DNA of 64,000 bases from the NCBI GenBank assembly GCA_005223185.1, contig NJBN01000002.1, forward strand, positions 1-64,000, given 5' to 3'. Below are positions 22,818-28,926 of the stretch, piece by piece; position 1 is the stretch's first letter; the number at the start of each line of letters is the position of its first letter. This stretch comes from a candidate division LCP-89 bacterium B3_LCP. Its GTDB lineage: Bacteria; Electryoneota; B3-LCP. The position numbers and the translations under genes were made by a program. The notes under the pieces are model-generated. The model had not been told where the DNA came from. It ran no database searches and saw only the letters and a program-made list of their open reading frames with translations.

Positions 22818-24320
22818 CTACCTGATCCAAACCCGCCCTAAAGTAATCAAAAACAGAGCTAACAACATCCAGCCTATTAGACCCTCGCACATGGCAAGCG
22901 TCCTGAAACGTATCGGCAGAGTTATCTTAAACCTTCCCGGTCCTATCTTCAGTTTTTCCGCTGTTGGATACCAATCACCGTACCCGACCGTAGTAAACGT
23001 ATTGACGCTGAAATACAACGCATCTCGAAAGCGTGCCCAGCGGTTTCTTTCGTCTTTATTCACTCCTTCTTTCTTCGATTTTAAAGCCGGATCATCGAAT
23101 TTGCGCTCCTGGATGGCTCCGTGCAAATAGTAGAACAACGCAAATAAAATAATCACAAAAAAAGATGTGAAAATAACCCGCCCCGGCTTGACGCCGTACC
23201 CACAGGAATAGTGCAGTAACGTCTTTAACAACCAGTCGCCTATGTTGGCATGTCTTCGCTCAATGGTCATGCGTTCATAATAGCACGCATCCTGATCCTC
23301 AAATTGCCCCAAGTTGGCAAAGTTATTTTCTAAGTGTATAAATACCTTGCGAAGCCTATTTATGTCATCGAATCTCTTCGCGGGTATTACACCCAAATTG
23401 CGGTCATAAAAATGTAGGTGCTCTTCCAACTGCAACCATGATAATTCGATATTTCTTACCTCGATATCCTCAAGTAAAATACGACAGTTCTGTAAAAAGC
23501 TAGTTGTTTTCAAATTTAGTGATTCTAAAAACTTCGCACCAGTGAGGTCTATTGTGGAAGTTGAATAAATTTCATGGAAGAAAACTACACCACTAAAGTT
23601 GGTATAACCTGAAAAAAATCCCTTTTCAAAGGATACATTGCCATAGAAATCGGTATTCTCAAAATCGACATTGCCTGAGAATGTTGTTTCTCGAAAGTAA
23701 GCATCCCCAAAGAATTCGGCAATATAGAACCGAGTCTCTCCAGAAAAAATGGTCGAAATAAAAACTGAATTATCATGAAAAACTGCAGAATTATAATAAA
23801 CATCACCAGAGAAAATCGCTTCTTCAAATCGTACTCCCTCTTTGAAAATAACACCCCTAAAATAAGCATTACAGTTGAAAGTTGCCTTACTGAAGTATGT
23901 ACCATGGGAAAAAGTTGCATCGTCAAAATATGCATTGTCATGGAAAATCCCTTTACTGAAATTCACATTACCATGGAAAATCGTTCTCTCAAAATAAACA
24001 CATGAAGAGAAATTAACTTGGCCGCCTGTATTTTGCAGAGTGAAGTCATCAGAAAATTCCGAGTCTGAAAACCTTATAATACATTTAACGGTATCAATAC
24101 CTGATCCTGAAATGTTTATTTTACCTGAAATTATTAGGCTATCACACCTGAGCACATCAGACGTATCCTGCAATACCTTAATCGCCTCTATAATCTTATC
24201 TGCTGAGATGGTGTCCGTGGTGGTGCTGTCACGCAGGTCTATCACTCGCGCCTGTAATTCGGCTCCCGCTGGCAGTAAGCACAAAAGCACTAAGGCAAAC
24301 AGAATAATCCGCTTGTTCAT
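22818..24320 (-). CDS. Exported pentapeptide-repeat protein fused to a K+-channel pore (Ion_trans_2)
   Basis: 500 residues. Residues 1-24 or so form a signal peptide (MNKRIILFALVLLCLLPAGA). Residues 80-275 are a long run of five-residue repeats with a phenylalanine core (F.G...F..A.F), which should form a right-handed beta helix of some ten coils. A helical linker follows (300-375). Then come one membrane helix (381-399), a pore helix and complete potassium filter TTVGYGD (443-449), and a last membrane helix (479-498). Pentapeptide proteins with this pore are a known architecture, but a signal peptide would put the repeats in the periplasm and reverse the pore relative to KcsA-type channels. 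The strongly basic loop between the first helix and the pore (400-432) agrees with a cytoplasmic location for that loop. RBS GAGGA. Ligand or mechanical gating is unknown. Confidence 0.82.
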   Translation of the reverse strand: MNKRIILFALVLLCLLPAGAELQARVIDLRDSTTTDTISADKIIEAIKVLQDTSDVLRCDSLIISGKINISGSGIDTVKCIIRFSDSEFSDDFTLQNTGGQVNFSSCVYFERTIFHGNVNFSKGIFHDNAYFDDATFSHGTYFSKATFNCNAYFRGVIFKEGVRFEEAIFSGDVYYNSAVFHDNSVFISTIFSGETRFYIAEFFGDAYFRETTFSGNVDFENTDFYGNVSFEKGFFSGYTNFSGVVFFHEIYSTSTIDLTGAKFLESLNLKTTSFLQNCRILLEDIEVRNIELSWLQLEEHLHFYDRNLGVIPAKRFDDINRLRKVFIHLENNFANLGQFEDQDACYYERMTIERRHANIGDWLLKTLLHYSCGYGVKPGRVIFTSFFVIILFALFYYLHGAIQERKFDDPALKSKKEGVNKDERNRWARFRDALYFSVNTFTTVGYGDWYPTAEKLKIGPGRFKITLPIRFRTLAMCEGLIGWMLLALFLITLGRVWIR

Positions 24321-24356
24321 TATGTCCTCATTCTTAAGAAAACGAAAGTTTGCCTG

Positions 24357-28071: not shown

Positions 28072-28926
28072 ATGAATGATATAACTCAGGTAAAAATCTG
28101 CCGCCACCAGGACTGCCGCTATAAAGCGTTAGCTCTTGCTGAATACTGCTGGTTCCATCTGGAGAATAAGAGACATTATCGCGGAGACCTTGAACTGCGA
28201 GTGGAGATGGGAACGGACCTAAGTGGAGCAAATTTAGCTGGCGCCGTTCTGGAAAAAATCCGCCTGCCCAATGCGAAGTTAGCACACGCTGATCTTTCCG
28301 GCGTTCGCTTCGCTTCTGTTGATCTATCCGGCGCTGATCTTTCCGGCGCGGAGTTGCATGGAAGTGATTTACGATCTGCACGTTTACTACGCTTGCAGGG
28401 GAGTGGGGCGCGTTTCGAAGGCGCTTTTCTAAGTGGCTGTAACTTTGAATACGCCCAATTGGCTGATACCAATTTCTCCCATGCTGACCTGAGAGGAGCA
28501 CAATTTACAGGCGCTTCACTGTACCAGGCACGAATGGATTTTGCGGTATTGGAAGGCGCTGATTTCAGTAACGCCGATCTTTCCTTTGCCATATTGGGTG
28601 GTGCTCACGCTTCTGATGCCATCTTCCATGAAGCGGATCTTTCCCGTTCTAACTTAGTCGGAACGGATCTCGAACGAGCAAATTTAAGTGGCGCAAATCT
28701 TTTCTATGCGCGCCCCGGCAGAGCTAAACTTCGCAAGGCAAACCTGACCAATGCCAGGCTGGAAAGAACGATCTTCCGCGAAGCCGATCTCACGGAAGCA
28801 AAATTGGTGAAAGCTGACTTGAGCGGCGCCGTGCTGGAACGTGCCATTTTAGAGGGTGCGGACCTTAGCGATTCTAACCTTGGCGCTGCTAATATCAACT
28901 GCGCGCTTCTGTCGGATGAGGTATAA
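28072..28926 (+). CDS. Pentapeptide-repeat protein with N-terminal zinc-knuckle motif
   Basis: 284 residues, no signal peptide. The N-terminus holds C-X4-C-X10-C-X2-H (CRHQDC...YCWFH), a likely small zinc-binding knuckle. From about residue 48 to the end runs an almost unbroken series of classic A(D/N)L-X-X pentapeptides (about 45), predicted to form a regular beta-helical rod. Such proteins can mimic DNA or act as scaffolds, but nothing here identifies a partner. No convincing ribosome site. The next gene follows at once, its ribosome site (GAGG) lying in the last codons of this gene, so the two are probably co-transcribed. Confidence 0.82.
   Translation: MNDITQVKICRHQDCRYKALALAEYCWFHLENKRHYRGDLELRVEMGTDLSGANLAGAVLEKIRLPNAKLAHADLSGVRFASVDLSGADLSGAELHGSDLRSARLLRLQGSGARFEGAFLSGCNFEYAQLADTNFSHADLRGAQFTGASLYQARMDFAVLEGADFSNADLSFAILGGAHASDAIFHEADLSRSNLVGTDLERANLSGANLFYARPGRAKLRKANLTNARLERTIFREADLTEAKLVKADLSGAVLERAILEGADLSDSNLGAANINCALLSDEV

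Follow-up and report, generated by a model that had tools for sequence, protein, structure and literature searches.

The window (the whole 64,000-nucleotide stretch of DNA that was analyzed) carries on its minus strand an open reading frame of 500 amino acids at 22818-24320 (24320 to 22818), which we confirmed, with GAGGA at 24325-24329 upstream of the ATG as a plausible ribosome site. From the N to the C terminus, the protein consists of a signal peptide, an F-type pentapeptide beta-helix, a short helix, a membrane helix (TM1), a basic loop, a TTVGYGD filter, a second basic loop, and a second membrane helix (TM2). The initial annotation had listed the signal peptide, the F-type pentapeptides, TTVGYGD, and the two membrane helices, and all of these parts were borne out by the reading frame, by Pfam (Pentapeptide_3, PF13576, 7e-24; Ion_trans_2, PF07885, 7e-11), and by a predicted structure. 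The features are as follows.

22818..24320, minus strand: whole gene, predicted exported pentapeptide beta-helix plus two-helix K+ channel pore, 500 amino acids (ORF, Pfam, model)
24325..24329, minus strand: GAGGA as probable Shine-Dalgarno sequence, 4 nt from the ATG (read directly from the sequence)
24249..24320, minus strand: signal peptide, residues 1-24; the -1 Ala does not vary among four Calditrichota homologues (homologue alignment)
24021..24248, minus strand: beta-helix cap at the N-terminal end (residues 25-100), with the C59/C80 pair (homologue comparison)
23445..24020, minus strand: right-handed beta-helix of F-type pentapeptides, residues ~101-292; the loop at 240-253 has low confidence (PF13576; model)
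23253..23438, minus strand: helical linker, residues 295-356, with the family motif YYxxR (homologues; model)
23193..23243, minus strand: short amphipathic helix, residues 360-376, ending in a CGYG motif; proposed interfacial collar, not membrane spanning (insertion score; model)
23124..23186, minus strand: TM1 (residues 379-399), with a proposed outside-to-inside course (sequence; model)
23043..23123, minus strand: basic loop between TM1 and the pore (residues 400-426), proposed to be cytoplasmic (charge counts)
22971..23042, minus strand: pore helix plus TTVGYGD filter (residues 427-450), proposed to come in from the cytoplasmic side (Pfam, homologues, model)
22908..22970, minus strand: basic loop between the filter and TM2 (residues 451-471), proposed to be cytoplasmic (charge counts)
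22821..22907, minus strand: TM2 and short C terminus (WIR), residues 472-500, C terminus proposed external (homologues, model)

The signal peptide, residues 1 to 24, reads MNKRIILFALVLLCLLPAGAELQA and is followed by R. Pentapeptides, F-type for the most part, span residues ~101 to 290 and include the run of at least eight contiguous repeats, folded as a right-handed beta-helix, that characterizes pentapeptide repeat proteins (PF13576; model strands). The pore has the parts of a two-helix P-loop K+ channel, namely, TM1, a pore helix, and TM2 (PF07885 and model) with a T-V-G-Y-G filter, the full TTVGYGD occupying residues 443 to 449. The very basic loop that had been noted at residues 400 to 432 was recovered at 400 to 426, and a second basic stretch, unmentioned before, lies between the filter and TM2 at 451 to 471; from TM1 through TM2, there are 16 K/R in 83 residues. 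The tail after TM2 is nearly absent, and the C terminus is WIR.

An AlphaFold2 model built from 21 sequences, of good quality for a monomer (mean pLDDT 87.3, pTM 0.77), which like Foldseek informs on the fold and not on the membrane side, places helices at residues 3-22, 320-336, and 340-356, a short one at 360-376, TM1 at 379-399, the pore helix at 427-443, and TM2 at 472-499, with the beta-helix reaching residue 292. The top Foldseek match in the PDB was HalA (9nyi; E 3.9e-4, probability 1.00), but its TM-score was low (0.25/0.36); K+ channels of plants and of the Kir type followed, their E-values being weak. PDB searches by phmmer and profile matched the pore only, the profile matches including KirBac3.1 and KcsA, and 9nyi was absent among the sequence matches listed. 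No family was assigned to the channel by NCBIfam or PADLOC, and a structure search of viral models with the channel gave no significant match. The model of one signal-less relative, made from a single sequence (pLDDT 57), was excluded from use.

Distribution of the family and its signal peptide

Searching the genome collection by sequence with the query alone gave no match; the homologues came with an alignment as the query. Close homologues (~35-39% identity) were found in three other Calditrichota genomes, and A24 (the -1 residue), C59, and C80 are shared by all of four Calditrichota homologues; the C59/C80 pair is not conserved in groups outside the Calditrichota. Distant homologues came from Bacteroidota and from ANME and methanogen archaea, with one more in a bin labeled Heimdallarchaeota that is possibly misbinned. 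The architecture is not a product of chance, since other phyla have it in full. Signal peptides, called by a hydrophobicity rule and reading by eye, the latter correcting some labels, were present in all full-length members of the first homologue set (Calditrichota, Bacteroidota, and archaea) and in nearly all members across the whole clade. Viral contigs yielded one distant relative, which is signal-less.

Many Bacteroidota genomes encode proteins with a signal peptide, a related cap, and pentapeptides but no channel, and the module is therefore also a secreted protein by itself. These secreted stand-alone proteins (L274-L292; ~253-294 aa) are widespread in Bacteroidota genomes. The window itself encodes at 28072-28926, on the plus strand, a 284-aa pentapeptide protein with no channel, whose N-terminal Cys/His cluster (CRHQDC..YCWFH) resembles that of signal-less pentapeptide channels.

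The Calditrichota genome G025, which holds an exported pentapeptide channel, also encodes a GluR0-like channel with a TVGYGD filter and a signal peptide (L128), and at a second G025 locus (L072; G025:C240) a 123-aa ORF corresponds to residues 424-500 of the channel, its pore end, at 59-70% identity and has a longer filter-TM2 loop. An acidic insert of ~95 residues occupies the TM1-pore loop of the ANME-2 member L074; it has seven more relatives in other reading frames of the same genome (G103) and resembles a repeated protein module, possibly a mobile one. In the exported archaeal member L238, a long insert (~80 residues), cationic and in part hydrophobic, separates TM1 from the pore. The TVGYGD filter has been lost, with TM1-P-TM2 kept, in archaeal L098, L101, L105, L106, L117, L121, and their relatives; most of these filter-less members have a signal peptide, and TAQSPPKLYP and FHTHPPAHWYP are examples of their filter regions.

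Charge distribution and phylogeny of the pore

We scored pore orientation as the number of K+R in the 15 residues before TM1 and the 15 after TM2 minus the number in the 15 residues that follow TM1 and the 15 that precede TM2, such that an ordinary K+ channel is expected to be positive and an inverted one negative. RCK-type two-helix channels, used as controls, gave a mean of +2.7 (positive in 16/18), and GluR0 homologues gave a mean of -4.4 (negative in 18/18); PhoA fusions have placed Synechocystis GluR0 in a topology opposite to that of KcsA (PMC13099474). Filter-intact pentapeptide channels with a signal peptide averaged -3.1 and were negative in 11 of 13 cases, and the initial set of signal-less pentapeptide channels averaged +3.3, all 21 being positive. 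Scores of the filter-less archaeal members were closer to zero. The segment from -16 to -45 before TM1 is also K/R rich, in the signal-peptide and signal-less groups alike.

The initial annotation had proposed asking whether the signal peptide and the basic loop occur together in homologues. They do: in a wider nonredundant set, scores ran from -6 to +1 in signal-peptide members (≤0 in 30/31) and from 0 to +7 in signal-less members (>0 in 27/28), and if zero is taken as canonical instead, 25 of 31 and 28 of 28, respectively, fall on the expected side. The AUC of the score was 0.956-0.994 across windows of 8 to 25 residues; it came down to 0.78-0.91 when acidic residues were subtracted, and the query then became mostly positive (+4 to -2). 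With windows of 8, 10, 12, 15, 20, and 25 residues, the K+R score of the query was +2, 0, -1, -1, -5, and -7, weak for the narrow windows and strong for the wide ones. Its signal peptide and the reversed K+R pattern of its family would be out of place in a canonical K+ channel, with its cytoplasmic N terminus and external filter, and the GluR0-like charge score would be in keeping with an exported N terminus and an inverted pore.

In a tree of the linker and pore, all 31 signal-peptide members fell into one group of 42 rows (support 96/95), which also takes in 4 signal-less rows and 7 rows without either call. Three of the signal-less rows, L242, L109, and L122, form a clade nested in the exported clade (99/94) with a score of +2; reading upstream of them revealed no signal peptide, and L122 is interrupted by a stop. 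The fourth, L239, scored 0. L114, on a long branch outside the L242/L109/L122 clade, scored +2. The annotation had held that homologues without a signal peptide would refute inversion. Such homologues do occur, but the charges covary with the loss, being positive in the three nested members and zero in L239, and it is because the score turned positive in that nested clade that the link between signal peptide and topology gains support.

These data suggest that the signal peptide was gained once and lost at least once, the charges changing each time. Because the sequences are related, independent topology changes are few: there are at most four independent signal-peptide/charge pairs, one of them on well-supported branches, too few for significance. 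In a tree of the pore columns, the exported and signal-less pentapeptide channels lay together on one side (100/100), and a clade uniting exported pentapeptide channels with GluR0 was rejected (AU p 0.004). Since the pores group with the signal-less pentapeptide channels and not with GluR0, the inversion, if real, arose independently of the glutamate receptors. The ancestors of the exported clade were probably channels whose beta-helix was cytoplasmic; these would have gained a signal peptide and shifted basic residues to the loops, and at least one later subclade probably lost the signal peptide and reverted.

Pore orientation and a proposed external gate

To our knowledge, the ionotropic glutamate receptors are the only lineage with inverted P-loop pores, and it is still argued how the flip of a K+ channel could come about. 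The inverted pore proposed in the initial annotation is supported by the conserved signal peptide, by the GluR0-type charge pattern, and by the lack of any convincing extra membrane helix between residues 300 and 380, where a helix would have counted against it; neither the insertion score nor the model offered one. On sequence grounds, this topology appears well supported, and we consider it likely that the query represents a second and independent case of an inverted K+ pore, here carrying an external beta-helix and gated from outside.

According to this reading, the protein would be a tetrameric, K+-selective P-loop channel lying the opposite way up to KcsA. The signal peptide would be cleaved and the N terminus exported, and the beta-helix would therefore lie outside the inner membrane. 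TM1 would cross the membrane inward, the pore loop would enter from the cytoplasm, and TM2 would return, its end facing outside. The TM2 end is the usual gate of P-loop channels. Four beta-helices, connected through the helical linkers and the 360-376 helices, would sit above this external gate, the 360-376 helix forming a collar akin to the pre-M1 helix of glutamate receptors, and a ligand, a partner, or cell wall strain acting on the beta-helices could open or close it.

An exported beta-helix could instead be joined to a KcsA-oriented pore if residues 360-376 spanned the membrane from outside to inside, giving three membrane helices with the GYGVKPGR turn in the cytoplasm. The model does have a helix there, followed by a basic turn, and the segment is fairly hydrophobic in some homologues, e.g., SGFAWFGDWLLWFSCGYG. 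It is, however, only 17 residues long and contains D361, K367, and H370 in the query, and in every filter-intact member the best 19-mer around it had an insertion score between +4.8 and +8.6, the TM1 median being ~-1.3, on an approximate scale (approximated published values with a simple position weight) whose scores are comparable with each other only. Moreover, signal-less relatives, in which the N terminus is necessarily cytoplasmic, share this helix and the CGYG motif, and the arrangement would put the 16 K/R of the two loops outside, contrary to the positive-inside rule that the controls obey; we regard it as improbable. It is harder still to believe that the N-terminal hydrophobic stretch is unused as a signal, so that a cytoplasmic beta-helix, of the kind found in many signal-less relatives, is joined to a canonical pore. 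The cleavage-site Ala is kept over long distances, the cap cysteines are invariant in the Calditrichota, a related cap exists in stand-alone secreted proteins, and the charges are opposite to those of the signal-less relatives.

A different objection opposes only the gating part of the inverted-pore reading and leaves its topology in place: the beta-helix might be a mere anchor or adhesin without a role in gating, or the pore might, in some members, belong to a TIR-linked defense pair. For two of the Calditrichota homologues, the gene immediately upstream overlaps the channel gene and encodes a cytoplasmic pentapeptide-TIR protein, and HalA, the nearest fold in the PDB, is the ion channel of the Hailong phage defense system. 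Nevertheless, the copy in the window has housekeeping genes nearby and no TIR neighbor, most Calditrichota pentapeptide-TIR genes have neighbors other than the channel, and 9nyi is not among the sequence matches listed. We judge this alternative unlikely, although less so than the two that concern topology, and we rejected TIR-linked defense as the main reading because a TIR neighbor was seen at two loci only. The TIR-adjacent loci are L071:1943-2992 and L060:314-1297 (TIR_2, 6.9e-22 and 1.7e-11), and the TIR domain is partly deleted in the second.

For the family as a whole, we favor, with some reserve, a history in which the pore flipped on gain of the signal peptide, independently of the glutamate receptors, and flipped back on its loss, in which some inverted archaeal members then lost the filter, and in which the external gate is worked by the pentapeptide beta-helix. 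Envelope strain, a periplasmic ligand, and a partner protein are possible candidates for what the channel responds to in the cell. Because close relatives differ in signal peptide and charge pattern, the flip, its reversal, and the orienting charges should be testable by simple swaps. We found no earlier description of pentapeptide-K+ channel fusions, inverted or archaeal, in the open-access literature, which was the scope of the search, and the word "channel" is absent from a review of pentapeptide proteins (PMC8145042).

Comparison with known systems

Rfr32 is a secreted pentapeptide protein with a signal peptide and a pentapeptide beta-helix (PMC8145042); like the stand-alone proteins of Bacteroidota, it shares these two parts with the query but has no channel. 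Two-helix K+ channels of the KcsA, KirBac, and MthK type share the pore helix and the TVGYGD filter and differ in having a cytoplasmic N terminus, an external filter, and the opposite charge pattern. The signal-less pentapeptide K+ channels (L005, L112, L169) share the beta-helix, the YY-motif linker, CGYGxxP, and TM1-P-TM2 but have no signal peptide, often carrying an N-terminal Cys/His cluster instead; their basic residues lie before TM1 and after TM2, and an ordinary orientation is therefore expected.

HalA presumably contains a beta-helix domain as well, in a domain arrangement that, from its low TM-score, probably differs from that of the query. Since the ligand of HalA is a cytoplasmic product, the part that binds it should be cytoplasmic too, and HalA would then be a normally oriented cousin. 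PMC13275509 describes HalA (Hailong) as an ion channel blocked by poly-dA.

GluR0 and the other prokaryotic glutamate receptor channels share with the query a signal peptide, an external N-terminal domain, a K+-type filter, basic loops on the filter side, and, if our reading is correct, an inverted pore. Unlike GluR0, the query has no ligand-binding (periplasmic-binding-protein) lobes according to Pfam and no external domain after TM2, and the two do not form a common pore clade. The beta-helix in place of the ligand-binding lobe would represent a new type of sensor for an inverted pore. Glutamate receptors have likewise lost the filter, and the inverted archaeal members that lack it would, on the history favored above, parallel the path from GluR0 to the glutamate receptors of animals.
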